The position numbers were made by a program, and so were the translations under genes. The notes beneath the pieces were generated by a model. The model was not told the DNA's origin. It saw nothing but the letters and a program-made list of their open reading frames with translations, and searched no databases. From Topomyia yanbarensis (taxonomy: Eukaryota; Arthropoda; Insecta; Diptera; Culicidae): a stretch of DNA of 64,000 nucleotides. The DNA lies in contig NC_080671.1 in assembly GCF_030247195.1 (NCBI RefSeq), positions 200,860,897-200,924,896 of the forward strand. The letters are read 5' to 3'. Of the stretch, positions 22,776 to 62,361 are shown in pieces (within the stretch, counting starts at the first letter, position 1; the number at the start of each line of letters is the position of its first letter).

Positions 22776-22781
22776 CCTCAA
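21753..22781 (-). CDS. ORF1/gag-like RNA-binding protein of the ORF1-only element
   Basis: An open frame of 342 codons. The first codons overlap the 5' target junction, so the natural start may be a later methionine such as MSKVDEKSLL. The middle contains a fold typical of retroelement ORF1 proteins: KLHDLSPRTPPDLVAEYMSR, YGEVESV, and FFPGTPNGVLVVRM, an RRM-like segment. It is followed by one zinc-knuckle-like motif, CKYCNQTAHHGQPC. The tail is Pro/Ser/Glu-rich and acidic (GEEDKNNDDG). There is no internal stop over more than 1 kb, which suggests recent activity. The product probably coats the element's RNA. Confidence 0.7.
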   Translation of the reverse strand: MRINLLSTSAQVRRTIEPSEQQLATSRSSVHCLENKANIQFIRAVMSKVDEKSLLRPNTAVVDFKFCSIRLSFSEVEYLLKVKMQLRLKEVMYLQYHHLRNVVLISFNTLAKAERFVLQNNLKHVAESDKVGIKIPVYIEKDYVDLKLHDLSPRTPPDLVAEYMSRYGEVESVIPDTWRNFFPGTPNGVLVVRMRIERPIPSHLTIKLKTHEATINQTTLCTHEGQTPTCKYCNQTAHHGQPCAEDTEENASLPIPNESTENQPKKEFSIPIPEPQTVAKFLAAVQSILTTAKAASSTPKTTVSNIGEEDKNNDDGFTLAPVRVISRKEHLITKTPLTIEKN

Positions 22782-22788
22782 GAAACTT
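22776..22788. repeat. Target-site duplication of the nested ORF1-only element, right
   Basis: CCTCAAGAAACTT, matching 21540-21552. The LINE ORF2 sequence resumes directly after it. Confidence 0.88.
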
Positions 22789-37610: not shown

Positions 37611-39458
<1,848 letters not shown>

Positions 39459-39996
39459 AATGTAGAATACATTTAAGGTTTCAATATAGGGGTCCCGTTT
39501 CAAAATATCGGCTGCGGTGCCGCGTCAGATTTTGAACGTTAATAACTTTTATCATACTTAACAGAATGATTTGATTTTTAGGCCAATTTGTTGCAAATAT
39601 GTTCCTCTATGCTGTATTAAAATTTGAAGTATGTATAACATGTACTAATAACAAAAAAAATGTGTTTTGAAAAATCTTTCGAAAACGACTCGGAAAAGTG
39701 AAAATTTTCAGCCCATCCCGCACAGAGCCGTCGTTATGGTAGACCAACCGAACAATAAAATAATGAAAAGTTTATATATAGGTCCACTACATGTTTGTTC
39801 GTATGGTTATTCGCATTGGGTTGCTTGACGAGAGCACTTGGTGGGGGAAAGACGGCATATTCCTTTGGTTAGGCCATTAGAAGCCGGACGGAAAGGAAAG
39901 GCTCATGCACGGCACGAGAACGAGCGAGAAAGCGATAGTAGTGCATATTAGCGCGATTCTGTCGGTCGGTTTTTCTCATCATTCATATTCGTTCAA

Positions 39997-40308
39997 GCAC
40001 TAGCAAGCAGCCAGTCCAGCGAAGGAAAGCAGTTGGCAATAGCGACGGACGGAAAAAGTGCCCCAGCTACTGGTGACTCATTGGAACTGTCGCCCTGCAA
40101 GAATTTCGCCCCAACTAAAGGGCAACAGAGTAGGCTATCGTTCCAGCGTCTGGGTCGTGAGATTGTGCAGGACTGCAAAGTCGAGCTACGCTTACAAAGC
40201 TCAGTCGTAATGATGCCCCGAGAAGACAACGATGCCTGCTTGGTCGGTTTGTTCGAGAATGCAAAATAGTGCTTTCTAGCTCACCGTGTCCGCGGGGAGT
40301 GCGTCTGA
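39997..40308 (+). pseudogene. Histone H3-derived pseudogene, copy 1 unit 1
   Basis: The frame from 39997 reads [20 protein letters not shown], then SAPATGDS. Further on come [40 protein letters not shown] and AK, followed by a TAG at 40267. After the TAG the same frame gives CFLAHRVRGECV and a TGA at 40308. These align in order with [56 protein letters not shown] and the C-terminus LARRIRGERA of histone H3. Relative to H3 there are two in-frame deletions (between SAPATG and FQRL, and between LFED and LARR) and one in-frame stop. The initiating ATG is lost. Unit 1 has Leu-Glu and Cys where the other units have Ser-Glu and Tyr. Any product would not be a normal nucleosomal histone. Confidence 0.85.
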
Positions 40309-40336
40309 ATTATGCTCCCGCAATAAAACAATAAAC

Positions 40337-40352
40337 GGTTCTTTACAGGACC
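40337..40352 (+). terminator. Histone-type 3' stem-loop, unit 1
   Basis: GGTTCT-TTAC-AGGACC forms a 6-bp stem (one U-G pair) with a 4-base loop, 29 bases after the TGA of the H3 frame. Position, stem length and loop size match the stem-loop that ends replication-dependent histone mRNAs; the usual loop is UUUC-like. It is preceded by ACAATAAAC. Confidence 0.75.
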
Positions 40353-40474
40353 AATTAATTGTGTTCTAATAAGAGTTAAACTGAAATTTACATTTTATGG
40401 TGCATAACAAATAATTTTCAGAAAGCAATATAAGCAATACGATGTGTGGAAAGAAAGAAAGAGAATTTAAATTA

Positions 40475-41030
40475 TCCTCTCTCGCTCGTTTTCGTGCACT
40501 GCTTTTCTATTCCTTTCTGCTGCTACTACCATCATAACTAAAACGAATGTGCGTGTTCACCCACCATCCTATGGCCAGTGTTGCCACAATTGCATGTTGC
40601 TATTACACTTTGAATTATTTTATCGATTCTCTCTAGTGTTGATAAAATATAGAACGTGCAAAGTACACTAGTCGCATGCTTTTATTCGAACTTTTTGGCA
40701 GCCTCCGTTGATTAACTGCATAAATCGATTTGTTTGTGCAGCTCCTTGCTAGTAGCAAACTAAATAGCCTTTATCAGCGCTAACAAATAACACGAAAGAA
40801 TTTAAATTTGTGAAAATCTTTTCCTTCCTTCTTTTCAAATCTGCAACATTCTTTGAAAATATTGTTTGAATGTTGCTATTGAAAAACTGAACATGCAAGT
40901 TTGCTAGCACTGGCCACTAGATTGAAGGCGATGGAAAGACAGAATATTCGTTTTGGTTATGCTAGTATTGGTAGCCGAACGGAAAGGAAAGGCGCAGGAA
41001 TGGCACAAAAACGAGCGATAGTAGTGCTTT
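40475..41030. repeat. Inverted arms flanking the H3 pseudogenes (first spacer)
   Basis: The stretch 40483-40592 (TCGCTCGTTTTCGTGCACTG, then CATAACTAAAACGAATGTG and CACTGG-like words) is the imperfect inverse of 40900-41015 (CACTGGCCAC, GAATATTCGTTTTGGTTATG, AAAACGAGCGA). Each H3 pseudogene therefore sits between a right-pointing arm and its inverse, like cargo in the loop of a foldback. The arrangement recurs in every unit of all three copies. Confidence 0.7.
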
Positions 41031-41040
41031 CTCGTGTGTT

Positions 41041-41080
41041 CATATATGAATATTGGTCGTTCGGTTTTTCTCATCATTCG
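41041..41080 (+). promoter_or_regulatory. H3 pseudogene core promoter, unit 2
   Basis: A TATA-like CATATATGAA at 41041 is followed about 33 bases later by TCATTCG (41074-41080), which fits the Py-CATTC-Pu cap-site consensus of histone genes. The H3 frame begins 12 bases further on. The same pair is at 42128-42167 and 43215-43254. Unit 1 has the cap-like TCATTCA but no comparable TATA. Confidence 0.6.
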
Positions 41081-41091
41081 TATTCGTTCAA

Positions 41092-41403
41092 GCACTAGCA
41101 AGCAGCCAGTCCAGCGAAGGAAAGCAGTTGGCAATAGCGACGGACGGAAAAAGCGCCCCAGCTACTGGTGACTCATCGGAACTGTCGCCCTGCAAGAATT
41201 TCGCCCCAACTAAAGGGCAACAGAGTAGGCTATCGTTCCAGCGTCTGGGTCGTGAGATTGTGCAGGACTGCAAAGTCGAGCTACGCTTACAAAGCTCAGT
41301 CGTAATGATGCCCCGAGAAGACAACGATGCCTACTTGGTCGGTTTGTTCGAGAATGCAAAATAGTGCTTTCTAGCTCACCGTGTCCGCGGGGAGTGCGTC
41401 TGA
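41092..41403 (+). pseudogene. Histone H3-derived pseudogene, copy 1 unit 2
   Basis: Same structure as unit 1, 1,095 bp downstream. It encodes the Ser-Glu and Ala-Tyr variant, so AYLVGLF matches H3 better than unit 1. The stem-loop is at 41432-41447. Confidence 0.85.
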
Positions 41404-41431
41404 ATTATGCTCCCGCAATAAAACAATAAAC

Positions 41432-41447
41432 GGTTCTTTACAGGACC
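41432..41447 (+). terminator. Histone-type 3' stem-loop, unit 2
   Basis: Sequence identical to the unit 1 stem-loop. Confidence 0.75.
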
Positions 41448-42178
41448 AATTAATTGTGTTCTAATAAGAGTTAAACTGAAATTTACATTTTATGGTGTAT
41501 AACAATTTTCAGCAAGTAGGTTAGAAATACGATGTGTGGAAAGAAAGAAAGAGAATTTAAATTATCCTCTCTCGCTCGTTTTCGTGCACTGCTTTTCCAT
41601 TCCTTTCTGCTGCTACTACCATCATAACTAAAACGAATGTGCGTGTTCACCCACCATCTCATGACCAGTGTTGCCACAATTGCATGTCGCTATTACAATT
41701 TGAATTATTTTATTGATCCTCTCTAGTATTGATAAAATGTAGAACGTGCAAAGTACACTAGTCGCATGCTTTTATTCGAACTTGGCAGCCTCCGTTGATT
41801 AACTGCATAAATCGATTTGTTTGTGCAGCTCCTTGCTAGTAGCAAACTAAATAGCCTTTATCAGCGCTAACAAATAACACGAAAGAATTTAAATTTGTGA
41901 AAATCTTTTCCTTCCTTCTTTTCAAATCTGCAACATTCTTTGAAAATATTGTTTGAATGTTGTTATTGAAAAACTGAACATGCAAGTTTGCTAGCACTGG
42001 CCACTAGATTGAAGGCGATGGAAAGACAGAATATTCGTTTTGGTTATGCTAGTATTGGTAGCCGAACGGAAAGGAAAGGCGCAGGAATGGCACAAAAACG
42101 AGCGATAGTAGTGCTTTCTCGTGTGTTCATATATGAATATTGGTCGTTCGGTTTTTCTCATCATTCGTATTCGTTCAA

Positions 42179-42490
42179 GCACTAGCAAGCAGCCAGTCCA
42201 GCGAAGGAAAGCAGTTGGCAATAGCGACGGACGGAAAAAGCGCCCCAGCTACTGGTGACTCATCGGAACTGTCGCCCTGCAAGAATTTCGCCCCAACTAA
42301 AGGGCAACAGAGTAGGCTATCGTTCCAGCGTCTGGGTCGTGAGATTGTGCAGGACTGCAAAGTCGAGCTACGCTTACAAAGCTCAGTCGTAATGATGCCC
42401 CGAGAAGACAACGATGCCTACTTGGTCGGTTTGTTCGAGAATGCAAAATAGTGCTTTCTAGCTCACCGTGTCCGCGGGGAGTGCGTCTGA
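42179..42490 (+). pseudogene. Histone H3-derived pseudogene, copy 1 unit 3
   Basis: The frame translates identically to unit 2 and lies 1,087 bp downstream. Units 2 and 3, with their spacers, look almost identical, so they are the most recently duplicated pair. Confidence 0.85.
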
Positions 42491-42518
42491 ATTATGCTCC
42501 CGCAATAAAACAATAAAC

Positions 42519-42534
42519 GGTTCTTTACAGGACC
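42519..42534 (+). terminator. Histone-type 3' stem-loop, unit 3
   Basis: Identical to the other units. Confidence 0.75.
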
Positions 42535-43265
42535 AATTAATTGTGTTCTAATAAGAGTTAAACTGAAATTTACATTTTATGGTGTATAACAATTTTCAGC
42601 AAGTAGGTTAGAAATACGATGTGTGGAAAGAAAGAAAGAGAATTTAAATTATCCTCTCTCGCTCGTTTTCGTGCACTGCTTTTCCATTCCTTTCTGCTGC
42701 TACTACCATCATAACTAAAACGAATGTGCGTGTTCACCCACCATCTCATGACCAGTGTTGCCACAATTGCATGTCGCTATTACAATTTGAATTATTTTAT
42801 TGATCCTCTCTAGTATTGATAAAATGTAGAACGTGCAAAGTACACTAGTCGCATGCTTTTATTCGAACTTGGCAGCCTCCGTTGATTAACTGCATAAATC
42901 GATTTGTTTGTGCAGCTCCTTGCTAGTAGCAAACTAAATAGCCTTTATCAGCGCTAACAAATAACACGAAAGAATTTAAATTTGTGAAAATCTTTTCCTT
43001 CCTTCTTTTCAAATCTGCAACATTCTTTGAAAATATTGTTTGAATGTTGTTATTGAAAAACTGAACATGCAAGTTTGCTAGCACTGGCCACTAGATTGAA
43101 GGCGATGGAAAGACAGAATATTCGTTTTGGTTATGCTAGTATTGGTAGCCGAACGGAAAGGAAAGGCGCAGGAATGGCACAAAAACGAGCGATGGTAGTG
43201 CTTTCTCGTGTGTTCATATATGAATATTGGTCGTTCGGTTTTTCTCATCATTCGTATTCGTTCAA

Positions 43266-43577
43266 GCACTAGCAAGCAGCCAGTCCAGCGAAGGAAAACA
43301 GTTGGCAATAGCGACGGACGGAAAAAGTGCCCCAGCTACTGGTGACTCATCGGAACTGTCGCCCTGCAAGAATTTCGCCCCAACTAAAGGGCAACAGAGT
43401 AGGCTATCGTTCCAGCGTCTGGGTCGTGAGATTGTGCAGGACTGCAAAGTTGAGCTACGCTTACAAAGCTCAGTCGTAATGATGCCCCGAGAAGACAACG
43501 ATGCCTACTTGGTCGGTTTGTTCGAGAATGCAAAATAGTGCTTTCTAGCTCACCGTGTCCGCGGGGAGTGCGTCTGA
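43266..43577 (+). pseudogene. Histone H3-derived pseudogene, copy 1 unit 4
   Basis: 1,087 bp after unit 3, with synonymous changes only (for example AAA for AAG in GKQLA and GTT for GTC in KVEL). The spacer after it is truncated near 43985, where the first 3' terminator of the element begins. Confidence 0.85.
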
Positions 43578-43605
43578 ATTATGCTCCCGCAATAAAACAA
43601 TAAAC

Positions 43606-43621
43606 GGTTCTTTACAGGACC
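43606..43621 (+). terminator. Histone-type 3' stem-loop, unit 4
   Basis: Identical to the other units. Confidence 0.75.
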
Positions 43622-43984
43622 AATTAATTGTGTTCTAATAAGAGTTAAACTGAAATTTACATTTTATGGTGTATAACAATTTTCAGCAAGTAGGTTAGAA
43701 ATACGATATGTGGATAGAAAGAGAATTTAAATTATCCTCTCGCTCGTTTTCGCGCACTGCTTTTCCATTCCTTTCTGCTGCTAATACATCATAACTAAAA
43801 CGAATGTGCGTGTTCACCCACCATCCTATGGCCAGTGTTGCCACAATTGCATGTTGCTATTACACTTTGAATTATTTTATCGATTCTCTCTAGTGTTGAT
43901 AAAATATAGAACGTGCAAAGTACACTAGTCGCTTGCTTTTATTCGAACTTTTTGGCAGCCTCCTTTGATTAACTGCATAAATCA

Positions 43985-44055
43985 TTAGATTTAAATTAAC
44001 ATCTCGAAGTGAAGTCACGATGCTCCGGTTATGTCACAGACATTACCCACCCATC
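43985..44055 (+). repeat. First internal 3'-terminator sequence of the H3-bearing element
   Basis: TTAGATTTAAATTAACATC leads to CTCCGGTTATGTCACAGACA and ends CCCACCCATC at 44055, then T9. It is the same motif as at 44438-44470 and 45066-45098, with one change in the hairpin loop (ACA for GCA). Confidence 0.8.
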
Positions 44056-44064
44056 TTTTTTTTT

Positions 44065-44470
44065 AGTTTAGAAGAGCGATAGTAGTTCGTATTCGACTAC
44101 TATCGCTCTCTCGCTTGCTCGTTTTCGGGCCATTTGTCTTTTCATTCTTTTCTGCTACTAATACTAGCATAATCAAAACGAATGTGCGTCTTCCCACCAT
44201 CCATTTAGTGAGCAGTGTTGCCAAACGCATTTTCAGTTTTTCATCAATAACATTTCAACAATATTTTCAAAGAATGCTGTAGATTCGAAAAAAAGAAAAA
44301 TAGTTGGTGATGGAAAAGAATTCCCAATTAGAATTTTTAACCATAATTATAACGAATCATTTGAAAATGTCACATGCAAACGTAATTTCGTTGCATATCA
44401 TTAGATTTGGATTAACGTCACAAGTGTAGTTACGACACTCCGGTTATGTCGCAGACATTACCCACCCATC
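44065..44470 (+). mobile_element. Half-foldback module without H3 (E2)
   Basis: Begins with a strong hairpin, GAGCGATAGTAGT...CTACTATCGCTC (44074-44108). It continues with an arm homologous to the H3 spacer arm (CTCGTTTTCGGGCC, AATCAAAACGAATGTGCG, GAGCAGTGTTGCC, CAATATTTTCAAAGAATG). It ends with the second 3'-terminator sequence at 44438-44470. No H3 sequence is present, so it resembles the empty symmetry centre of the H3 units. Confidence 0.6.
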
Positions 44471-44511
44471 TTTTAATGTAGAATATTTAATCTAGAAATC
44501 AGAATGTTCCA

Positions 44512-44751
44512 ATGGTCGTTTCAGGCGACTTCAACATAGATGTTTCAAAACAAGAGAATTTGAAATTTGTGCATTTTATGAATGAATGTCTCAAGCTTCG
44601 TTTGATCTCTGATCCATCACAAGCAACTACACTTGCAGGCACATGCATTGATCTTGTATTTGTCAAAAACGGCAATGCAGAAACCCGACGATATATTTCG
44701 TACTTTTCATATCACAGACCAATACTTTCTTTAATTGATCCAGTGGTTTAA
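44512..44751 (+). pseudogene. Endonuclease (EEP) domain fragment in E3, copy 1
   Basis: The frame reads VPMVVSGDFNIDVSKQENLK, then LISDPSQATTLAGTCIDLVF and YFSYHRPILS. GDFNID, T-x-x-GTCIDLVF and the terminal SYHRP correspond to the C-terminal half of an AP-like endonuclease fold (the usual SDHxP reads SYHRP). Upstream codons before the ATG continue the same frame (NQNVPM), so the domain is truncated at its N-terminus. Vertebrate Helentrons are known to carry a LINE-derived endonuclease at the 3' end of Rep/helicase. This may be an internal-deletion remnant of such a gene, or a separate LINE capture. Confidence 0.6.
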
Positions 44752-45065
44752 TTTCAAATGTAAACAACGCTTGAAAAATTATAACCGGTTGACGACCTAC
44801 ACCTACACCAATCATGTCAGAATCGCCTCCTGGACAACAGCTAAGCCCGGAAATAGTAAGAAGTTAGAAGCATCCAACGAGAATCGAAGCCAGCGCATCT
44901 CCCCCACCAAGGCCAACAACGCCAACAAAAACGGTCCTTTTCAGGACTACCATCATTTTTGTAAAGAATAATTTGAAATATTCCTCGCCCAAATCACCTT
45001 TTGTCCGAAAATTCCAATGAATATCAACATATTTGAAGAACGTGTTCCTTATGTATTCTACATCT

Positions 45066-45098
45066 CTCCGGTTATGTCGCAGACATTACCCACCCATC
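45066..45098 (+). terminator. Terminal 3' hairpin of the H3-bearing element, copy 1
   Basis: CTCCGGTTATGTCGCAGACA, then TTACCCACCCATC. The stem ATGTC/GACAT closes a GCA loop, and the element ends 12 bases later. By analogy to Helitron-class elements this hairpin is the likely transposition terminator. Other copies of the motif are at 44023-44055 and 44438-44470. Confidence 0.65.
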
Positions 45099-45305
45099 TT
45101 TTTTATTGATTGGACTTCCGGTTCCGGAGTTACGTGTTGAAGAGTGCAATCACACAGCAAATTCCCATATAAACTGAAATGAAAAATTTTCAAAATCAAA
45201 TTTGTATTTTTGATGCCAAATGGCTTTATAATGCATGAAACATCGAGATTTGATGTAAACTCGAAAAAAATAATGTTTGACATAAATTGATTTTTTTGGA
45301 CTTTG

Positions 45306-45706
45306 GTACATTTTTGCCTTTCTCATATAGAAAGGTTATGCAATCACTCTAAAAATCGTCAATCATACCGGCCCGGAGGGAGTATGCAGTGAGTGGTTGC
45401 TACTGTAAAATTAAAACTAGTTTAAAATTTCTTAACAAGTTAAAAATTTTCGGCAGGACCCGGACCTCCCGGATCTTACTATGTGATACTGAAACATCGC
45501 TTGAAACCAGCGGCGGTCAAGCGATGTTTCAGTATCACATAGTATCTCAAGATCGTGGCTGTCGATCCGTTGTACGTATGTGCAAATCGTACTGAACATG
45601 TAATATTCATTTCCACCATTGTATTGAACATAACCAGCCATGAAATCGTAGTCTGGACAAATGAGAAAAGCACAATTGCACCACTAGGTGGATTAAAACA
45701 GGTTTT
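45306..45706 (+). mobile_element. TGCCTTTCTC-bounded repeat containing a perfect hairpin
   Basis: Starts TTTTTGCCTTTCTCATATAG and ends with the near-inverse GAGAAAAGCACAATTGCACC plus the ACTAGGTGGATTAAAACAGG tail. Inside are a fragment of the 26964-type MITE (about 45405-45475) and a perfect 27-bp inverted repeat at 45478-45543. Confidence 0.55.
45478..45543. repeat. Perfect 27-bp inverted repeat with 12-base loop
   Basis: ACTATGTGATACTGAAACAT, then CGCTTGA, pairs without mismatch with its inverse ending at 45543; the loop is AACCAGCGGCGG. A transcript would form a pre-miRNA-sized hairpin. The perfect match suggests a recent origin. Confidence 0.85.
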
Positions 45707-46844
45707 TATTTTGGGAATGCGTCGAGTTGAGACGAAAACGTAATATGATTAATATCGAGGATAACACTTTCCGAATGTAGAGAGAAATTTATGAGAAATG
45801 ACGATTTCCATTCGACTTTAGCAGGTCCTGATCGATTTTGATGAGAATTTGATTTTTGTTGTATGACCAATTATATGTATAGGTCTAATGTTCAAAAACA
45901 GTAATTTAAGGTCAAGATAACATCATTTTGAAACCGCCAATTTCGGAGGTTTAGTATCTTCGATGAGTTTTACAAACGTTAAACAGCGCATCATTTGATA
46001 AAATAATTTTGGCGGTGTATCGTCCAAGAAGTATTTATGGTGAATTTTCTCAGGTTAATATTCATGACTACAATAAAGTCTCAACAAATTCGCTAAAAAC
46101 ACGAACTCTGTTACTATTTTCTGAAAAATTAATTCTGCATAATTTTAAAACTTCAAAAATTACGGTTTCGGAATTATGCCGTATGGACAGTAAGATCGAT
46201 TTTCACCAAACCCTCACCAATTGTAAAATTGGTATTGTAAAAAGAACTTAAGGGCGATACTTCAATGCTGATAGGTGGGACCGAAAAAGTAAACAATCGT
46301 CAAAGGGGCGATACTATCATTTTGTCAATTTCAATAGCAAACACAAATTTTAATTTAATAATTTCAAATACTTCATGAAGTTTTGGGTTTCGATCACTGA
46401 ATCATGCAATCTAGGATGTAAAAAACACAATAGTTGTTAAATAGGAAATAAAACCAAACCTGGAAATATTCACTGCTGATTTTCTTTGAATGGTGTCACT
46501 GCTAGTATCGCTTTTTTCCAGAAAAAGCGTTGATTTTTAGGTCTCAGTCGCGTTGGAAATTTGAGTAAAGTATAAACTTCATTCGGATTCAAAAAAAAAT
46601 TCGATTTTTTGGCTCAGTACAATATACATAACCCCTTTAGGAAAATTCAGTTTTCCCACCACAATGCATTGATTGAGGAATTTAGGTATTTTATTAACAG
46701 AGCATTAGCAATAATTCGTTTGTATGTATATTTTATGGGCCATTTTTTCGCTTTCCCATTGATTTGGTTTGAGATTTCTAGCACTGATGTTGTCCTATGC
46801 TGATTTGAGCGATTCTCTGAGTCCTGCCACTATCCCATGTAGTA

Positions 46845-47820: not shown

Positions 47821-48976
47821 CTGCATGTGTTATCAAAAACATCGCAAAACATAAAATTCTAAATATTCTCAATCGATATAATATCAGAAGAGAGTGATAA
47901 GAGTTATAAGAAATGTCTCATCACACTGTTAGGTGGATTAAAAACGTTTTGCCTTTCTCATATAAAGAAAGGCTATGCAATCACTGTAAAAATCGACTTT
48001 TTAACCGAGGCCCGGAGGGCCGAGTATCATACACCATTCGATTCAGTTCGTCGAGATCGGCAAATGTCTGTGTGTGTGTGTATGTATGTGTGTGTGTGTG
48101 TGTGTATGTGTGTGTGTGTATGTGTGTGTCATTTAAACTCACGCAATTTTCTCAGAGATGGCTGAACCGATTTTTGCAAACTTAGTTTCATCTGAAAGGT
48201 ATAACGCTCCCATAAGCTGCTATTGAATTTTTAGTTGATCCGACTTCCGGTTCCGGAGTTACGGGTTGAAGAGTGCGGTCACACAGCAAATTCCCATATA
48301 AACTGGTACCACCATATTGTTCAAATGATGTAAAACATATTAAAATTGATGTAACATTACTCTAGTTTGCGGGTCTGGATCACTAATGATTAATCAAAGC
48401 AGCTTTGACCACATTGGCCACCTATGACGGTTCATGACGCCCTCGGGGAACCCGCCAAGTTCCTAAGCTAATATCACACCCATTCCACAACGAAGTCTCT
48501 ACCGATTTTTACGAACTTAATTTCAAATGAAAGATACAGTAACGCCATTGACTGCTGCTGAATTTCATTCGGTTCTGACTCTTGCTTTCGGAGTTACAGG
48601 GGTGTTAGTAAGGATACACTGGAATTTCCCATATAAATCGGTACAATCGTAATACCTCAGAGGCTAAAAACTATTGAAATGGTCACCAAATTACTTCTAA
48701 TCGTAGATCTAGATCACTGATTGCCAATCAAACATTCTTTGAATATATTGTCCACTATCGACGATTTCGGAAGTCCGGAATTCCGGGCATATTCCACAAT
48801 TAAAGTCACATCGGTTCATCGGTGATGACTGAAGGATTTCTGACGCATCCTCCACACCCACTCTACTAAACCCCCATTCCCTACACGTTCAAACGCATTC
48901 CACCAACCTTTGCAAATTATAATTACATGAAGATAACATTGAACTCTTGCTTATTAAGCTAATTAAATATCATTCT
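47821..48976 (+). repeat. Family Z repeat, copy 3
   Basis: A tail fragment similar to 30900-31010 (47821-47945) is followed by a new head at 47950 (GCCTTTCTCATATAAAGAAA). Next come GAGGCCCGGAGGGCCGAGT, a TG/TATG run (48070-48130) and CAGAGATGGCTGAACCGAT. The CCGACTTCCGGTTCCGGAGT block is repeated in diverged form near 48575. Confidence 0.6.
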
Positions 48977-49838
48977 TTTGCCTTTCTTATATAGAAAGGT
49001 TATGCAATTGCTCCAAAAACCGACTTTCTAACCGAGGCCCGGAGGGCCGAGTCTCATATAACATTCGACTCAGTTCGCCGAGATCGCAAAATATCTGTGT
49101 GTATGTATGTGTGTATGTATGTATGTGTATGTGTGTATGTATGTGTGTGTATGTGCGGATTTGTTAACAAAATGTCCACATCGGTTACTCGGAGATGGCT
49201 GAACCGATTTTTACAAACTAAGATTCAAATGAAAGGTATAATATTCCCATAGGTTGCTATTGAATTTCATTTTCAACCGACATAATGTTCCGAATTACGA
49301 GTTGAAGAGTATGGTTACAAAACAAAATTTGTTGATTTTTCCAAATCGGTTTCTCGGAATTTTCTGAACCGATTTTGACAAACTTAATTTTAAATGAAAG
49401 GTCCATCAGCTGCTGTTGAATTTTGTGTGGATCCGAGTTCTGGTTCCTGAATTACAGGGTGATACGTACGATCACGCAGCAAATCCCGATTCTAACGAAT
49501 TCTGCGAAGAATGTAAAAAGGTGATTTTTTTTTCTAAAATGTAAACACAACTGTTGAATTTGTAGATCTAGGTCCCCAACAGTCATTCAAAGTCTCTTTG
49601 GCCACACTGGCCACCATCGACGGATCCGGAAGCATCCAAAGTCAGAATAACGGTTATATTGGTTTCTCGAAAATGGCTAGATTTGCTCAACTTAGTCTCA
49701 AATGAAAGGTGTTGCGTCCCCAGAAACTGATATTAAATTCCATCTCCATCCGACTTCCAGCACCGGAGTTACGGGTTGTGGAGGTCGATCACATAGAAAA
49801 CTCCGATTCAAACCGATACCGCGATGAATGCAAAAAAA
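48977..49838 (+). repeat. Family Z repeat, copy 4, left part
   Basis: Head TTTTGCCTTTCTTATATAG at 48976, then the GGCCCGGAGGGCC block, a TATG/TG run (49095-49155) and three diverged AATGGCTGAACCGAT-like modules. It is cut at the A7 tract by H3-bearing copy 2. The right part resumes at 55479-55625. Confidence 0.65.
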
Positions 49839-50185
49839 GATGGGTGGGTAATGTCTGCGACATAACCGGAGAGATGTAGAATACATAAGGAACACGTTCT
49901 TCAAATATGTTGATATTCATTGGAATTTTCGGACAAAAGGTGATTTGGGCGAGGAATATTTCAAATTATTCTTTACAAAAATGATGGTAGTCCTGAAAAG
50001 GACCGTTTTTGTTGGCGTTGTTGGCCTTGGTGGGGGAGATGCGCTGGCTTCGATTCTCGTTGGATGCTTCTAACTTCTTACTATTTCCGGGCTTAGCTGT
50101 TGTCCAGGAGGCGATTCTGACATGATTGGTGTAGGTGTAGGTCGTCAACCGGTTATAATTTTTCAAGCGTTGTTTACATTTGAAA

Positions 50186-50425
50186 TTAAACCACTGGATC
50201 AATTAAAGAAAGTATTGGTCTGTGATATGAAAAGTACGAAATATATCGTCGGGTTTCTGCATTGCCGTTTTTGACAAATACAAGATCAATGCATGTGCCT
50301 GCAAGTGTAGTTGCTTGTGATGGATCAGAGATCAAACGAAGCTTGAGACATTCATTCATAAAATGCACAAATTTCAAATTCTCTTGTTTTGAAACATCTA
50401 TGTTGAAGTCGCCTGAAACGACCAT
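50186..50425 (-). pseudogene. Endonuclease (EEP) domain fragment, copy 2
   Basis: Translates identically to the copy 1 fragment at 44512-44751. Confidence 0.6.
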
Positions 50426-51359
50426 TGGAACATTCTGATTTCTAGATTAAATATTCTACATTAAAAGATGGGTGGGTAATGTCTGCGACATAACCGGAGT
50501 GTCGTAACTACACTTGTGACGTTAATCCAAATCTAATGATATGCAACGAAATTACGTTTGCATGTGACATTTTCAAATGATTCGTTATAATTATGGTTAA
50601 AAATTCTAATTGGGAATTCTTTTCCATCACCAACTATTTTTCTTTTTTTCGAATCTACAGCATTCTTTGAAAATATTGTTGAAATGTTATTGATGAAAAA
50701 CTGAAAATGCGTTTGGCAACACTGCTCACTAAATGGATGGTGGGAAGACGCACATTCGTTTTGATTATGCTAGTATTAGTAGCAGAAAAGAATGAAAAGA
50801 CAAATGGCCCGAAAACGAGCAAGCGAGAGAGCGATAGTAGTCGAATACGAACTACTATCGCTCTTCTAAACTAAAAAAAAAGATGGGTGGGTAATGTCTG
50901 TGACATAACCGGAGCATCGTGACTTCACTTCGAGATGTTAATTTAAATCTAATGATTTATGCAGTTAATCAAAGGAGGCTGCCAAAAAGTTCGAATAAAA
51001 GCAAGCGACTAGTGTACTTTGCACGTTCTATATTTTATCAACACTAGAGAGAATCGATAAAATAATTCAAAGTGTAATAGCAACATGCAATTGTGGCAAC
51101 ACTGGCCATAGGATGGTGGGTGAACACGCACATTCGTTTTAGTTATGATGTATTAGCAGCAGAAAGGAATGGAAAAGCAGTGCGCGAAAACGAGCGAGAG
51201 GATAATTTAAATTCTCTTTCTATCCACATATCGTATTTCTAACCTACTTGCTGAAAATTGTTATACACCATAAAATGTAAATTTCAGTTTAACTCTTATT
51301 AGAACACAATTAATTGGTCCTGTAAAGAACCGTTTATTGTTTTATTGCGGGAGCATAAT

Positions 51360-51671
51360 TCAGACGCACTCCCCGCGGACACGGTGAGCTAGAAAGCACT
51401 ATTTTGCATTCTCGAACAAACCGACCAAGTAGGCATCGTTGTCTTCTCGGGGCATCATTACGACTGAGCTTTGTAAGCGTAGCTCAACTTTGCAGTCCTG
51501 CACAATCTCACGACCCAGACGCTGGAACGATAGCCTACTCTGTTGCCCTTTAGTTGGGGCGAAATTCTTGCAGGGCGACAGTTCCGATGAGTCACCAGTA
51601 GCTGGGGCACTTTTTCCGTCCGTCGCTATTGCCAACTGTTTTCCTTCGCTGGACTGGCTGCTTGCTAGTGC
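51360..51671 (-). pseudogene. Histone H3-derived pseudogene, copy 2 unit 4
   Basis: Mirror of 43266-43577, with the same amino-acid sequence. Stem-loop at 51316-51331. Confidence 0.85.
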
Positions 51672-52446
51672 TTGAACGAATACGAATGATGAGAAAAACC
51701 GAACGACCAATATTCATATATGAACACACGAGAAAGCACTACCATCGCTCGTTTTTGTGCCATTCCTGCGCCTTTCCTTTCCGTTCGGCTACCAATACTA
51801 GCATAACCAAAACGAATATTCTGTCTTTCCATCGCCTTCAATCTAGTGGCCAGTGCTAGCAAACTTGCATGTTCAGTTTTTCAATAACAACATTCAAACA
51901 ATATTTTCAAAGAATGTTGCAGATTTGAAAAGAAGGAAGGAAAAGATTTTCACAAATTTAAATTCTTTCGTGTTATTTGTTAGCGCTGATAAAGGCTATT
52001 TAGTTTGCTACTAGCAAGGAGCTGCACAAACAAATCGATTTATGCAGTTAATCAACGGAGGCTGCCAAGTTCGAATAAAAGCATGCGACTAGTGTACTTT
52101 GCACGTTCTACATTTTATCAATACTAGAGAGGATCAATAAAATAATTCAAATTGTAATAGCGACATGCAATTGTGGCAACACTGGTCATGAGATGGTGGG
52201 TGAACACGCACATTCGTTTTAGTTATGATGGTAGTAGCAGCAGAAAGGAATGGAAAAGCAGTGCACGAAAACGAGCGAGAGAGGATAATTTAAATTCTCT
52301 TTCTTTCTTTCCACACATCGTATTTCTAACCTACTTGCTGAAAATTGTTATACACCATAAAATGTAAATTTCAGTTTAACTCTTATTAGAACACAATTAA
52401 TTGGTCCTGTAAAGAACCGTTTATTGTTTTATTGCGGGAGCATAAT

Positions 52447-52758
52447 TCAGACGCACTCCCCGCGGACACGGTGAGCTAGAAAGCACTATTTTGCATTCTC
52501 GAACAAACCGACCAAGTAGGCATCGTTGTCTTCTCGGGGCATCATTACGACTGAGCTTTGTAAGCGTAGCTCGACTTTGCAGTCCTGCACAATCTCACGA
52601 CCCAGACGCTGGAACGATAGCCTACTCTGTTGCCCTTTAGTTGGGGCGAAATTCTTGCAGGGCGACAGTTCCGATGAGTCACCAGTAGCTGGGGCGCTTT
52701 TTCCGTCCGTCGCTATTGCCAACTGCTTTCCTTCGCTGGACTGGCTGCTTGCTAGTGC
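52447..52758 (-). pseudogene. Histone H3-derived pseudogene, copy 2 unit 3
   Basis: Mirror of 42179-42490. Stem-loop at 52403-52418. Confidence 0.85.
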
Positions 52759-53533
52759 TTGAACGAATACGAATGATGAGAAAAACCGAACGACCAATAT
52801 TCATATATGAACACACGAGAAAGCACTACTATCGCTCGTTTTTGTGCCATTCCTGCGCCTTTCCTTTCCGTTCGGCTACCAATACTAGCATAACCAAAAC
52901 GAATATTCTGTCTTTCCATCGCCTTCAATCTAGTGGCCAGTGCTAGCAAACTTGCATGTTCAGTTTTTCAATAACAACATTCAAACAATATTTTCAAAGA
53001 ATGTTGCAGATTTGAAAAGAAGGAAGGAAAAGATTTTCACAAATTTAAATTCTTTCGTGTTATTTGTTAGCGCTGATAAAGGCTATTTAGTTTGCTACTA
53101 GCAAGGAGCTGCACAAACAAATCGATTTATGCAGTTAATCAACGGAGGCTGCCAAGTTCGAATAAAAGCATGCGACTAGTGTACTTTGCACGTTCTACAT
53201 TTTATCAATACTAGAGAGGATCAATAAAATAATTCAAATTGTAATAGCGACATGCAATTGTGGCAACACTGGTCATGAGATGGTGGGTGAACACGCACAT
53301 TCGTTTTAGTTATGATGGTAGTAGCAGCAGAAAGGAATGGAAAAGCAGTGCACGAAAACGAGCGAGAGAGGATAATTTAAATTCTCTTTCTTTCTTTCCA
53401 CACATCGTATTTCTAACCTACTTGCTGAAAATTGTTATACACCATAAAATGTAAATTTCAGTTTAACTCTTATTAGAACACAATTAATTGGTCCTGTAAA
53501 GAACCGTTTATTGTTTTATTGCGGGAGCATAAT

Positions 53534-53845
53534 TCAGACGCACTCCCCGCGGACACGGTGAGCTAGAAAGCACTATTTTGCATTCTCGAACAAACCGACC
53601 AAGTAGGCATCGTTGTCTTCTCGGGGCATCATTACGACTGAGCTTTGTAAGCGTAGCTCGACTTTGCAGTCCTGCACAATCTCACGACCCAGACGCTGGA
53701 ACGATAGCCTACTCTGTTGCCCTTTAGTTGGGGCGAAATTCTTGCAGGGCGACAGTTCCGATGAGTCACCAGTAGCTGGGGCGCTTTTTCCGTCCGTCGC
53801 TATTGCCAACTGCTTTCCTTCGCTGGACTGGCTGCTTGCTAGTGC
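53534..53845 (-). pseudogene. Histone H3-derived pseudogene, copy 2 unit 2
   Basis: Mirror of 41092-41403. Stem-loop at 53490-53505. Confidence 0.85.
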
Positions 53846-54628
53846 TTGAACGAATACGAATGATGAGAAAAACCGAACGACCAATATTCATATATGAACA
53901 CACGAGAAAGCACTACTATCGCTCGTTTTTGTGCCATTCCTGCGCCTTTCCTTTCCGTTCGGCTACCAATACTAGCATAACCAAAACGAATATTCTGTCT
54001 TTCCATCGCCTTCAATCTAGTGGCCAGTGCTAGCAAACTTGCATGTTCAGTTTTTCAATAGCAACATTCAAACAATATTTTCAAAGAATGTTGCAGATTT
54101 GAAAAGAAGGAAGGAAAAGATTTTCACAAATTTAAATTCTTTCGTGTTATTTGTTAGCGCTGATAAAGGCTATTTAGTTTGCTACTAGCAAGGAGCTGCA
54201 CAAACAAATCGATTTATGCAGTTAATCAACGGAGGCTGCCAAAAAGTTCGAATAAAAGCATGCGACTAGTGTACTTTGCACGTTCTATATTTTATCAACA
54301 CTAGAGAGAATCGATAAAATAATTCAAAGTGTAATAGCAACATGCAATTGTGGCAACACTGGCCATAGGATGGTGGGTGAACACGCACATTCGTTTTAGT
54401 TATGATGGTAGTAGCAGCAGAAAGGAATAGAAAAGCAGTGCACGAAAACGAGCGAGAGAGGATAATTTAAATTCTCTTTCTTTCTTTCCACACATCGTAT
54501 TGCTTATATTGCTTTCTGAAAATTATTTGTTATGCACCATAAAATGTAAATTTCAGTTTAACTCTTATTAGAACACAATTAATTGGTCCTGTAAAGAACC
54601 GTTTATTGTTTTATTGCGGGAGCATAAT

Positions 54629-54940
54629 TCAGACGCACTCCCCGCGGACACGGTGAGCTAGAAAGCACTATTTTGCATTCTCGAACAAACCGACCAAGCA
54701 GGCATCGTTGTCTTCTCGGGGCATCATTACGACTGAGCTTTGTAAGCGTAGCTCGACTTTGCAGTCCTGCACAATCTCACGACCCAGACGCTGGAACGAT
54801 AGCCTACTCTGTTGCCCTTTAGTTGGGGCGAAATTCTTGCAGGGCGACAGTTCCAATGAGTCACCAGTAGCTGGGGCACTTTTTCCGTCCGTCGCTATTG
54901 CCAACTGCTTTCCTTCGCTGGACTGGCTGCTTGCTAGTGC
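54629..54940 (-). pseudogene. Histone H3-derived pseudogene, copy 2 unit 1
   Basis: Mirror of 39997-40308, with the same Leu-Glu and Cys variants. Stem-loop at 54585-54600. Confidence 0.85.
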
Positions 54941-55478
54941 TTGAACGAATATGAATGATGAGAAAAACCGACCGACAGAATCGCGCTAATATGCACTACT
55001 ATCGCTTTCTCGCTCGTTCTCGTGCCGTGCATGAGCCTTTCCTTTCCGTCCAGCTTCTAATGGCCTAACCAAAGGAATATGCCGTCTTTCCCCCACCAAG
55101 TGCTCTCGTCAAGCAACCCAATGCGAATAACCATACGAACAAACATGTAGTGGACCTATATATAAACTTTTCATTATTTTATTGTTCGGTTGGTCTACCA
55201 TAACGACGGCTCTGTGCGGGATGGGCTGAAAATTTTCACTTTTCCGAGTCGTTTTCGAAAGATTTTTCAAAACACATTTTTTTTGTTATTAGTACATGTT
55301 ATACATACTTCAAATTTTAATACAGCATAGAGGAACATATTTGCAACAAATTGGCCTAAAAATCAAATCATTCTGTTAAGTATGATAAAAGTTATTAACG
55401 TTCAAAATCTGACGCGGCACCGCAGCCGATATTTTGAAACGGGACCCCTATATTGAAACCTTAAATGTATTCTACATT

Positions 55479-55625
55479 AAAAGTGCTCTTATATATACTT
55501 ACCAAGTGTAATAAGAATGAAAGACATTTCCATAAAGTTATATTGTACGAACCAGCTATTAAATCATAGTTTGGAGAAATGAGAAAGGCACAATTGCACC
55601 TCTAGGTGGATTAAAACAGGTTTTT
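55479..55625 (+). repeat. Family Z repeat, copy 4, right end
   Basis: After A4 the sequence GTGCTCTTATATATAC leads to GAGAAAGGCACAATTGCACC, then TCTAGGTGGATTAAAACAGG, the 3' end of this repeat class. The same end is at 45660-45706. Confidence 0.65.
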
Positions 55626-56476: not shown

Positions 56477-56845
56477 CAGAGGCGGATCCAGAAAAAAAGA
56501 TGGGTGGGTAATGTCTGCGACATAACCGGAGAGATGTAGAATACATAAGGAACACGTTCTTCAAATATGTTGATATTCATTGGAATTTTCGGACAAAAGG
56601 TGATTTGGGCGAGGAATATTTCAAATTATTCTTTACAAAAATGATGGTAGTCCTGAAAAGGACCGTTTTTGTTGGCGTTGTTGGCCTTGGTGGGGGAGAT
56701 GCGCTGGCTTCGATTCTCGTTGGATGCTTCTAACTTCTTACTATTTCCGGGCTTAGCTGTTGTCCAGGAGGCGATTCTGACATGATTGGTGTAGGTGTAG
56801 GTCGTCAACCGGTTATAATTTTTCAAGCGTTGTTTACATTTGAAA

Positions 56846-57085
56846 TTAAACCACTGGATCAATTAAAGAAAGTATTGGTCTGTGATATGAAAAGTACGAA
56901 ATATATCGTCGGGTTTCTGCATTGCCGTTTTTGACAAATACAAGATCAATGCATGTGCCTGCAAGTGTAGTTGCTTGTGATGGATCAGAGATCAAACGAA
57001 GCTTGAGACATTCATTCATAAAATGCACAAATTTCAAATTCTCTTGTTTTGAAACATCTATGTTGAAGTCGCCTGAAACGACCAT
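56846..57085 (-). pseudogene. Endonuclease (EEP) domain fragment, copy 3
   Basis: Translates identically to the fragments in copies 1 and 2. Confidence 0.6.
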
Positions 57086-58019
57086 TGGAACATTCTGATT
57101 TCTAGATTAAATATTCTACATTAAAAGATGGGTGGGTAATGTCTGCGACATAACCGGAGTGTCGTAACTACACTTGTGACGTTAATCCAAATCTAATGAT
57201 ATGCAACGAAATTACGTTTGCATGTGACATTTTCAAATGATTCGTTATAATTATGGTTAAAAATTCTAATTGGGAATTCTTTTCCATCACCAACTATTTT
57301 TCTTTTTTTCGAATCTACAGCATTCTTTGAAAATATTGTTGAAATGTTATTGATGAAAAACTGAAAATGCGTTTGGCAACACTGCTCACTAAATGGATGG
57401 TGGGAAGACGCACATTCGTTTTGATTATGCTAGTATTAGTAGCAGAAAAGAATGAAAAGACAAATGGCCCGAAAACGAGCAAGCGAGAGAGCGATAGTAG
57501 TCGAATACGAACTACTATCGCTCTTCTAAACTAAAAAAAAAGATGGGTGGGTAATGTCTGTGACATAACCGGAGCATCGTGACTTCACTTCGAGATGTTA
57601 ATTTAAATCTAATGATTTATGCAGTTAATCAAAGGAGGCTGCCAAAAAGTTCGAATAAAAGCAAGCGACTAGTGTACTTTGCACGTTCTATATTTTATCA
57701 ACACTAGAGAGAATCGATAAAATAATTCAAAGTGTAATAGCAACATGCAATTGTGGCAACACTGGCCATAGGATGGTGGGTGAACACGCACATTCGTTTT
57801 AGTTATGATGTATTAGCAGCAGAAAGGAATGGAAAAGCAGTGCGCGAAAACGAGCGAGAGGATAATTTAAATTCTCTTTCTATCCACATATCGTATTTCT
57901 AACCTACTTGCTGAAAATTGTTATACACCATAAAATGTAAATTTCAGTTTAACTCTTATTAGAACACAATTAATTGGTCCTGTAAAGAACCGTTTATTGT
58001 TTTATTGCGGGAGCATAAT

Positions 58020-58331
58020 TCAGACGCACTCCCCGCGGACACGGTGAGCTAGAAAGCACTATTTTGCATTCTCGAACAAACCGACCAAGTAGGCATCGTT
58101 GTCTTCTCGGGGCATCATTACGACTGAGCTTTGTAAGCGTAGCTCAACTTTGCAGTCCTGCACAATCTCACGACCCAGACGCTGGAACGATAGCCTACTC
58201 TGTTGCCCTTTAGTTGGGGCGAAATTCTTGCAGGGCGACAGTTCCGATGAGTCACCAGTAGCTGGGGCACTTTTTCCGTCCGTCGCTATTGCCAACTGTT
58301 TTCCTTCGCTGGACTGGCTGCTTGCTAGTGC
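58020..58331 (-). pseudogene. Histone H3-derived pseudogene, copy 3 unit 4
   Basis: Counterpart of 51360-51671. Stem-loop at 57976-57991. Confidence 0.85.
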
Positions 58332-59106
58332 TTGAACGAATACGAATGATGAGAAAAACCGAACGACCAATATTCATATATGAACACACGAGAAAGCACT
58401 ACCATCGCTCGTTTTTGTGCCATTCCTGCGCCTTTCCTTTCCGTTCGGCTACCAATACTAGCATAACCAAAACGAATATTCTGTCTTTCCATCGCCTTCA
58501 ATCTAGTGGCCAGTGCTAGCAAACTTGCATGTTCAGTTTTTCAATAACAACATTCAAACAATATTTTCAAAGAATGTTGCAGATTTGAAAAGAAGGAAGG
58601 AAAAGATTTTCACAAATTTAAATTCTTTCGTGTTATTTGTTAGCGCTGATAAAGGCTATTTAGTTTGCTACTAGCAAGGAGCTGCACAAACAAATCGATT
58701 TATGCAGTTAATCAACGGAGGCTGCCAAGTTCGAATAAAAGCATGCGACTAGTGTACTTTGCACGTTCTACATTTTATCAATACTAGAGAGGATCAATAA
58801 AATAATTCAAATTGTAATAGCGACATGCAATTGTGGCAACACTGGTCATGAGATGGTGGGTGAACACGCACATTCGTTTTAGTTATGATGGTAGTAGCAG
58901 CAGAAAGGAATGGAAAAGCAGTGCACGAAAACGAGCGAGAGAGGATAATTTAAATTCTCTTTCTTTCTTTCCACACATCGTATTTCTAACCTACTTGCTG
59001 AAAATTGTTATACACCATAAAATGTAAATTTCAGTTTAACTCTTATTAGAACACAATTAATTGGTCCTGTAAAGAACCGTTTATTGTTTTATTGCGGGAG
59101 CATAAT

Positions 59107-59418
59107 TCAGACGCACTCCCCGCGGACACGGTGAGCTAGAAAGCACTATTTTGCATTCTCGAACAAACCGACCAAGTAGGCATCGTTGTCTTCTCGGGGC
59201 ATCATTACGACTGAGCTTTGTAAGCGTAGCTCGACTTTGCAGTCCTGCACAATCTCACGACCCAGACGCTGGAACGATAGCCTACTCTGTTGCCCTTTAG
59301 TTGGGGCGAAATTCTTGCAGGGCGACAGTTCCGATGAGTCACCAGTAGCTGGGGCGCTTTTTCCGTCCGTCGCTATTGCCAACTGCTTTCCTTCGCTGGA
59401 CTGGCTGCTTGCTAGTGC
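59107..59418 (-). pseudogene. Histone H3-derived pseudogene, copy 3 unit 3
   Basis: Counterpart of 52447-52758. Stem-loop at 59063-59078. Confidence 0.85.
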
Positions 59419-60193
59419 TTGAACGAATACGAATGATGAGAAAAACCGAACGACCAATATTCATATATGAACACACGAGAAAGCACTACTATCGCTCGTT
59501 TTTGTGCCATTCCTGCGCCTTTCCTTTCCGTTCGGCTACCAATACTAGCATAACCAAAACGAATATTCTGTCTTTCCATCGCCTTCAATCTAGTGGCCAG
59601 TGCTAGCAAACTTGCATGTTCAGTTTTTCAATAACAACATTCAAACAATATTTTCAAAGAATGTTGCAGATTTGAAAAGAAGGAAGGAAAAGATTTTCAC
59701 AAATTTAAATTCTTTCGTGTTATTTGTTAGCGCTGATAAAGGCTATTTAGTTTGCTACTAGCAAGGAGCTGCACAAACAAATCGATTTATGCAGTTAATC
59801 AACGGAGGCTGCCAAGTTCGAATAAAAGCATGCGACTAGTGTACTTTGCACGTTCTACATTTTATCAATACTAGAGAGGATCAATAAAATAATTCAAATT
59901 GTAATAGCGACATGCAATTGTGGCAACACTGGTCATGAGATGGTGGGTGAACACGCACATTCGTTTTAGTTATGATGGTAGTAGCAGCAGAAAGGAATGG
60001 AAAAGCAGTGCACGAAAACGAGCGAGAGAGGATAATTTAAATTCTCTTTCTTTCTTTCCACACATCGTATTTCTAACCTACTTGCTGAAAATTGTTATAC
60101 ACCATAAAATGTAAATTTCAGTTTAACTCTTATTAGAACACAATTAATTGGTCCTGTAAAGAACCGTTTATTGTTTTATTGCGGGAGCATAAT

Positions 60194-60505
60194 TCAGACG
60201 CACTCCCCGCGGACACGGTGAGCTAGAAAGCACTATTTTGCATTCTCGAACAAACCGACCAAGTAGGCATCGTTGTCTTCTCGGGGCATCATTACGACTG
60301 AGCTTTGTAAGCGTAGCTCGACTTTGCAGTCCTGCACAATCTCACGACCCAGACGCTGGAACGATAGCCTACTCTGTTGCCCTTTAGTTGGGGCGAAATT
60401 CTTGCAGGGCGACAGTTCCGATGAGTCACCAGTAGCTGGGGCGCTTTTTCCGTCCGTCGCTATTGCCAACTGCTTTCCTTCGCTGGACTGGCTGCTTGCT
60501 AGTGC
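60194..60505 (-). pseudogene. Histone H3-derived pseudogene, copy 3 unit 2
   Basis: Counterpart of 53534-53845. Stem-loop at 60150-60165. Confidence 0.85.
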
Positions 60506-61288
60506 TTGAACGAATACGAATGATGAGAAAAACCGAACGACCAATATTCATATATGAACACACGAGAAAGCACTACTATCGCTCGTTTTTGTGCCATTCC
60601 TGCGCCTTTCCTTTCCGTTCGGCTACCAATACTAGCATAACCAAAACGAATATTCTGTCTTTCCATCGCCTTCAATCTAGTGGCCAGTGCTAGCAAACTT
60701 GCATGTTCAGTTTTTCAATAGCAACATTCAAACAATATTTTCAAAGAATGTTGCAGATTTGAAAAGAAGGAAGGAAAAGATTTTCACAAATTTAAATTCT
60801 TTCGTGTTATTTGTTAGCGCTGATAAAGGCTATTTAGTTTGCTACTAGCAAGGAGCTGCACAAACAAATCGATTTATGCAGTTAATCAACGGAGGCTGCC
60901 AAAAAGTTCGAATAAAAGCATGCGACTAGTGTACTTTGCACGTTCTATATTTTATCAACACTAGAGAGAATCGATAAAATAATTCAAAGTGTAATAGCAA
61001 CATGCAATTGTGGCAACACTGGCCATAGGATGGTGGGTGAACACGCACATTCGTTTTAGTTATGATGGTAGTAGCAGCAGAAAGGAATAGAAAAGCAGTG
61101 CACGAAAACGAGCGAGAGAGGATAATTTAAATTCTCTTTCTTTCTTTCCACACATCGTATTGCTTATATTGCTTTCTGAAAATTATTTGTTATGCACCAT
61201 AAAATGTAAATTTCAGTTTAACTCTTATTAGAACACAATTAATTGGTCCTGTAAAGAACCGTTTATTGTTTTATTGCGGGAGCATAAT

Positions 61289-61600
61289 TCAGACGCACTC
61301 CCCGCGGACACGGTGAGCTAGAAAGCACTATTTTGCATTCTCGAACAAACCGACCAAGCAGGCATCGTTGTCTTCTCGGGGCATCATTACGACTGAGCTT
61401 TGTAAGCGTAGCTCGACTTTGCAGTCCTGCACAATCTCACGACCCAGACGCTGGAACGATAGCCTACTCTGTTGCCCTTTAGTTGGGGCGAAATTCTTGC
61501 AGGGCGACAGTTCCAATGAGTCACCAGTAGCTGGGGCACTTTTTCCGTCCGTCGCTATTGCCAACTGCTTTCCTTCGCTGGACTGGCTGCTTGCTAGTGC
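61289..61600 (-). pseudogene. Histone H3-derived pseudogene, copy 3 unit 1
   Basis: Counterpart of 54629-54940. Stem-loop at 61245-61260. Confidence 0.85.
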
Positions 61601-62361
61601 TTGAACGAATATGAATGATGAGAAAAACCGACCGACAGAATCGCGCTAATATGCACTACTATCGCTTTCTCGCTCGTTCTCGTGCCGTGCATGAGCCTTT
61701 CCTTTCCGTCCAGCTTCTAATGGCCTAACCAAAGGAATATGCCGTCTTTCCCCCACCAAGTGCTCTCGTCAAGCAACCCAATGCGAATAACCATACGAAC
61801 AAACATGTAGTGGACCTATATATAAACTTTTCATTATTTTATTGTTCGGTTGGTCTACCATAACGACGGCTCTGTGCGGGATGGGCTGAAAATTTTCACT
61901 TTTCCGAGTCGTTTTCGAAAGATTTTTCAAAACACATTTTTTTTGTTATTAGTACATGTTATACATACTTCAAATTTTAATACAGCATAGAGGAACATAT
62001 TTGCAACAAATTGGCCTAAAAATCAAATCATTCTGTTAAGTATGATAAAAGTTATTAACGTTCAAAATCTGACGCGGCACCGCAGCCGATATTTTGAAAC
62101 GGGACCCCTATATTGAAACCTTAAATGTATTCTACATTAAAAAATTCGGGAGGGGTCTGAAATTTTGAATTAGAAATGAACATTGCACAATTCGTATACG
62201 CAATAACCTTATTTAATTAAAATCAGTTTTGGTAGTCAAATTTAGTTTGGAATGATTTTGGTTTTGAAACTAAAAAAAAATTGAAATTAATTTAAAATTT
62301 CTGAACAAGTTGAAAATTTTTGGGGAGGTCCTCCAAGATCTTCTCCCTGGATCCGTGACTG

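Follow-up and report, generated by a model that had tools for sequence, protein, structure and literature searches.

The stretch of Topomyia yanbarensis DNA analysed here, in the following called the window (64,000 nucleotides; assembly GCF_030247195.1, contig NC_080671.1, positions 200,860,897 to 200,924,896, forward strand), contains three copies of a 5,650 bp element, named A, B and C, each with four tandem units derived from a histone H3 gene (Table 1). Copies B and C are identical, and copy A differs from both by a single base over the 5,650 positions. The left and right ends are common to all three copies, and the sequences flanking them are unrelated. The borders are also the same in all three, with TTTT at the start and TTTTTT at the end, and a target duplication was not seen by eye in the 60 bp on each side of copies A, B and C, where the flanks differ. 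The element is very probably a rolling-circle transposon that is non-autonomous and of the Helentron/HINE kind (DINE-1-like), and in it a captured and decayed H3 gene was multiplied in tandem.

Table 1. Positions in the window of the three element copies and of their parts.
Feature	Position	Strand	Remarks
Element copy A	39455..45104	+	5,650 bp; very probably a Helentron-like non-autonomous element (HINE); window self-comparison
Element copy B	49833..55482	-	no difference from copy C in 5,650 positions; self-comparison
Element copy C	56493..62142	-	5,650 bp; self-comparison
5' subterminal inverted repeat ATGTAGAATACAT	39460..39472	+	13 nt, palindromic, short hairpin
Tandem array, four units	39846..43983	+	spacing 1095, 1087, 1087; last unit truncated
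H3 relic, unit 1	40027..40299	+	tblastn E 7e-14
H3 relic, unit 2	41122..41394	+	tblastn E 8e-15
H3 relic, unit 3	42209..42481	+	tblastn E 8e-15
H3 relic, unit 4	43296..43568	+	tblastn E 8e-15
Histone 3' stem-loop-like sequence	40333..40357	+	downstream of unit 1 relic; 6 bp stem, 4-nt loop
Internal repeat of 3' terminal sequence (end 1)	44023..44059	+	one mismatch; surrounding fold z -1.50
Diverged inverted copy (77%) of unit spacer 40825-41016	44117..44298	-	
Internal repeat of 3' terminal sequence (end 2)	44438..44474	+	exact; surrounding fold z -1.37
Endonuclease fragment, Exo_endo_phos_2-like	44491..44748	+	86 aa stop-free; below Pfam cut-off
Second histone 3' end, RF00032 stem-loop and downstream element	44928..44973	+	Rfam 32.3 bits, E 1.8e-6; gathering score 34
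3' subterminal inverted repeat	45051..45063	-	exact inverse of 5' repeat ATGTAGAATACAT
3' hairpin GGT-T-ATGTC-GCA-GACAT-T-ACC	45070..45090	+	8-bp stem, one T-T mismatch, 14 nt from 3' end
Four H3 relics of copy B	51369..54910	-	54638-54910, 53543-53815, 52456-52728, 51369-51641; tblastn
Four H3 relics of copy C	58029..61570	-	61298-61570, 60203-60475, 59116-59388, 58029-58301; tblastn

Altogether 12 H3 relics were found in the window, four per element copy. The tblastn query was a manually entered H3 protein, and the H4, H2A, H2B and H1 proteins mentioned below were entered likewise. PDB chains of H3 match unit 2, the sole unit tried, with E 1.1e-13. The Pfam Histone model, scanned with the in-frame TAG of the relic read as X, gave E 8.2e-6 and 26.5 bits in three of the four units (cut-off 26.4), and in unit 1 E 1.5e-4 and 22.4 bits, which is below the cut-off. 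Alignments to H3, made with the frame-aware method of our own script, scored 167 for unit 1 and 176 for units 2-4, whereas none of 60 shuffled versions of unit 2 exceeded 42. When the unit 2 relic was used as a protein query, with its first 80 residues, 8 candidates yielded 7 proteins, all with a Pfam Histone domain, and the three that were inspected are H3-like and free of the lesions of the relic. The exact pattern of the relic is absent from viral contigs, which is little informative for a collection of that kind.

The recognisable H3 sequence begins at a KQLA motif, the start codon and the next 17 residues being missing. From this motif to the RGE motif there are 116 residues in H3 and 91 codons in the relic, a net loss of 25 codons between K18 and E133. 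Near the end of the relic there is one clean 14-codon gap, and earlier two frame-breaking losses cancel each other, so that H3 residues 44-59 between them are read in another frame, which contains a further stop codon. An in-frame TAG is found near the end, and the final stop lies at the position of the H3 stop. The loss of the start, the frameshifts, the gap and the TAG are common to all four units. Set beside a replication-dependent H3 gene, the relic is still recognisable by its residues and its 3' stem-loop-like sequence, but because it has no start, two cancelling frameshifts, the 14-codon gap and stops, it is a non-coding pseudogene. A functional H3 variant was considered and set aside; the reading frame is not intact.

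Most of what a preliminary description, made from the sequence alone, had claimed about this array holds. Four tandem units each with a damaged H3 were found (tblastn E 8e-15 to 7e-14), the Pfam Histone similarity on which that reading had been staked is present, with unit 1 alone below the cut-off, and the frame-aware alignment confirmed that the start codon is lost and that the TAG is common to the four units. The two in-frame deletions it had counted are right as a net count, but only one is a clean gap and the other consists of the two cancelling losses. The array is tandem as described, but it begins and ends elsewhere, its last unit is cut short, and it lies within a longer element. That it is carried by a mobile element also agrees with our results; the two minus-strand copies, with eight more relics, had been missed.

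Units 2 and 3 are identical (0/1087 differences). Unit 1 differs from unit 2 at 46/1071 sites and from unit 4 at 44/861, and unit 4 differs from unit 2 at 19/874; 13 columns of the alignment set units 1 and 4 together and apart from units 2 and 3. Each relic is followed by the histone 3' stem-loop-like sequence, with exact copies at 41428, 42515 and 43602 and in the eight units of copies B and C (12/12 exact). In unit 2 the fold of this stretch is not unusual (z -0.96, 37/200 shuffles as good), and Rfam, searched with E up to 10, gave no match to the stem-loop-like sequences of the units of copy A. The same search over 39800-45200 listed six matches, and only Histone3 at 44928-44973, the second histone 3' end, was judged credible; at the gathering threshold there are 0 matches in the whole window. 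The spacer of the units holds diverged inverted repeats.

These histone features raise the question of a degenerate host histone cluster, or a segmental duplication, with no transposon at all. The units keep the 3' stem-loop-like sequence, a divergent histone promoter could explain the inverted spacer repeats, and a recent duplication could account for the identity of B and C. Against this, the three copies have exact common ends and unrelated flanks, and these ends bear subterminal inverted repeats and a hairpin. Furthermore, tblastn with the manually entered H4, H2A, H2B and H1 (E up to 10) placed none of them in the three copies, and Pfam gave no support for a linker histone in ten translated stretches. 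We therefore regard a host cluster or duplication as very unlikely.

The assignment to Helentron/HINE is supported by the subterminal inverted repeats (subTIRs), the 3' hairpin and the T-run borders, which agree with what Thomas et al. 2014 (PMC4067079) describe for Helentrons and HINEs of mites and of Culex. According to this source, such elements have palindromic subTIRs of 12-15 bp, one near the 5' end and one 38-60 bp from the 3' end, and a palindrome of 5-10 bp located 8-35 bp from the 3' end, and they insert into T-rich sites with Ts at both borders, leaving the target unmodified (PMC4067079). In the Topomyia element an exact inverse pair of 13 nt is present; its 5' member, at nt 6-18, is preceded by 5 nt, and its 3' member is followed by 41 nt. 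In mite families the 5' distance is about 2-4 nt, and the number of Ts is variable (PMC4067079). The 3' palindrome is the hairpin of Table 1, and the Ts are found at the borders of 3/3 copies, with no duplication visible by eye. The last 60 nt, including the subTIR, fold with -5.5 kcal/mol, better than all shuffles (z -5.06, 0/200 as good). A canonical Helitron would have 5' TC and 3' CTRR and insert between A and T (PMC4067079), a rule that the ends of the element, TTTTAATG and CATCTTTTTT, do not follow.

The right side of the element has a composite structure, and its stacked 3' ends and endonuclease fragment, like the histone stem-loops, also count in favour of the assignment. The 3' terminal sequence occurs three times there, at 44023, 44438 and 45066, and between the second and third occurrences lie the endonuclease fragment and the second histone 3' end. 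Helentrons bear an endonuclease domain at the end of the Rep/helicase protein (PMC4067079), and the fragment has seven relatives, six with 60-73% identity and one with 49%, whose names are uninformative. An alignment of six relatives gave 151 pattern matches in viral contigs and 81 in bacterial and archaeal contigs, of which 0 were confirmed in either collection. The stretch 44735-44968 had no PDB match. The exact pattern of the element's 3' end was found in neither viral nor bacterial/archaeal contigs, which such collections make little informative.

The ends also bear on whether the element belongs to some other class, a miniature inverted-repeat or other cut-and-paste DNA element, or a fragment of a retrotransposon without long terminal repeats (non-LTR) that happens to have similar ends. 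Short inverted repeats are present, and the family of the endonuclease fragment also serves non-LTR elements (PMC4067079). The inverted repeats are, however, subterminal rather than terminal, no clear target duplication was seen, and the stacked internal 3' ends and the T-run borders are not in favour of another class either, which leaves it very improbable.

Several observations weigh against the Helentron/HINE assignment. The endonuclease fragment reaches only E 2.6e-4 in Pfam (21.3 bits, cut-off 27.4), and the viral, bacterial and archaeal collections confirmed no relative of it with a fused Rep/helicase. Ten translated stretches from outside the array were scanned, and no Rep/helicase was recognised in them; the element is thus taken as non-autonomous. 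For the first 61 nt, shuffles fold about equally well (z -0.23, 87/200 as good). The empty site of copy A, finally, speaks for the assignment as far as it goes, but it is partial. When the flanks of copy A are joined with three border Ts they match 29930-30041 across the T run at 102/112 positions, with the right side complete and 19 bp on the left. This paralog has about 670 bp on the left that copy A lacks, and its alignment no longer crosses the border once the three Ts are taken out of the joined query. A second and weaker paralog, at 48216-48305, does span the border of copy A (79/90 positions, 13 bp on the left), and for copies B and C no border-crossing match was found within the window.

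Copy A is situated inside one of two diverged copies of a longer repeat family, at 28143-30887 and 38339-46844 (88-93% identity in pieces). A perfect (AT)145 microsatellite is found at 38050-38339, 1.1 kb to the left of copy A, and a perfect 28-bp inverted repeat with a 12-nt loop at 45477-45544, about 370 bp to the right. The three near-identical insertions lie within 23 kb, B and C in the same orientation about 1 kb apart, and such clustering suggests local transposition or targeting. An assembly artefact was set aside, as the flanks differ from copy to copy, but it may still account for B and C being identical.

Elsewhere in the window, the open reading frames at 7476-8630, 19957-21511 and 21753-25082 (minus strand) resemble non-LTR retrotransposons, with copies that are partly alike. 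Gag-like frames with zinc knuckles were recognised by eye, and a reverse transcriptase is shown by matches for 19960-21129 (minus strand) only. Among the 42 proteins listed for this frame, the best match is a T. yanbarensis protein with 86% identity over 77% of the query, and the second, from the same species, has 76% over 77%. Good matches were also obtained in Wyeomyia smithii (78% over 49%) and in Malaya genurostris (83% over 31%), and others in Uranotaenia lowii (71% over 70%), in Toxorhynchites rutilus (70% over 46%), in Culex quinquefasciatus (61% over 64% and 62% over 42%) and in Aedes albopictus (44-63%). As weak evidence, drawn from a single transposon frame, these matches place the window in a mosquito that is probably closer to Sabethini than to Culex. 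The frame at 17474-18007 resembles, by eye, an immunoglobulin-domain exon of a host gene, presumably of the lachesin/DIP type.

It had also been proposed that the array could affect histone-locus biology, recombination or the control of histone genes by small RNAs. No run of more than 24 nt in the relic could agree exactly with DNA coding for canonical H3; this figure is a maximum, reached if the codons are as favourable as they can be, and it leaves untranslated regions aside. For 30 pieces taken at random from the window, the corresponding maxima were 10-16. Such a piece would at best be long enough for a single small RNA. It is hardly credible that the array is maintained as a source of small RNAs, or of antisense RNA, that act on histone mRNA. 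In favour of this, A and B face each other as arms of 5.65 kb that differ by one base, with 4.7 kb between them, and could form a long double-stranded RNA; against it, the frame of the relic is not kept and the 24 nt limit the idea, even if this is still the length of a small RNA. Small-RNA control of H3 was set aside, and an effect on the host histone genes, or a role in histone biology, is not supported.

The structure of the Helentron/HINE element suggests how it may have been formed. An ancestral Helentron/HINE would have taken up a replication-dependent histone H3 gene with its 3' stem-loop, probably together with promoter DNA, and also a second histone 3' end. As the right side bears a stack of the 3' terminal sequence three times over, the most likely way of capture is that replication continued past one 3' terminator to a later one, and repeated read-through of terminators is a capture route discussed for Helentrons (PMC4067079). 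The captured H3 copy would then have decayed beyond coding, and unequal exchange, or slippage during replication, would have turned the segment of H3 and spacer into a tandem array of four units, in the same way as the central repeats of such elements. The lesions common to all units suggest that the decay preceded the amplification. This order, damage first and multiplication afterwards, had been put forward in the preliminary description and fits the shared lesions, but with units 2 and 3 identical the array may be homogenised, in which case the lesions could have spread inside it. The finished 5.65-kb element would later have moved three times into the window, presumably with Rep/helicase supplied in trans by a partner.

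A histone-carrying Helentron is already known from a mosquito, and the idea that such an element is without precedent does not hold. Helentron-Cq-32A of Culex quinquefasciatus has fragments of two histone genes in eight copies, and these carry a stop, a frameshift and indels; one fragment, of 244 bp, was assigned to the 'H4 superfamily' (smart00428) and the other, of 87 bp, to the linker histone H15 (Thomas et al. 2014, PMC4067079). As far as the published description can be compared, the Topomyia element differs in that no linker-histone match was found, that the H3 sequence is arranged in four tandem units, and that the host belongs to another tribe. Topomyia is, like Malaya and Wyeomyia, a member of Sabethini and Culex of Culicini, all within Culicinae. 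The name smart00428 stands for a histone H3 model; a search for a second paper on this point found none. The two elements are alike in their palindromic subTIRs, 3' stem loop, T insertion and decayed histone fragments (PMC4067079). A tandem H3 array in a Helentron was not found in the open-licence literature, as far as its accessible text goes, nor were the four-fold tandem H3 unit and this host.

It is conceivable, although we hold it only tentatively, that histone genes entered mosquito Helentrons repeatedly, in separate events in Culex and in the present lineage, or that one was passed between them; the tandem histone locus would then be a favoured site for landing or read-through, and the H3 piece would be turning into satellite DNA dispersed by the element. 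The present element extends the histone-carrying Helentrons to a second mosquito host, probably a different one, and likely steps of the process can be read from its structure: the 3' ends are stacked, the captured gene has decayed and been multiplied in tandem, and the dispersal is fresh. Gene capture by Helentrons, and the birth of a satellite from a captured gene, thereby become datable across mosquito genomes. The dead copies can, in addition, inflate H3 copy numbers or the annotation of histone arrays in such genomes. HINEs and DINE-1 elements with central tandem repeats are likewise non-autonomous Helentrons whose middle is an array spread by transposition, and simple or tandem repeats make up about half of HINE-Cq-32A.1 (PMC4067079). 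In the oyster, satellite-like tandem arrays are reported to be carried by Helentrons (PMC7492417). Compared to the arrays described in these sources, the repeat unit of the Topomyia element is of a different kind, a captured histone gene together with its spacer, about 1.1 kb in length.

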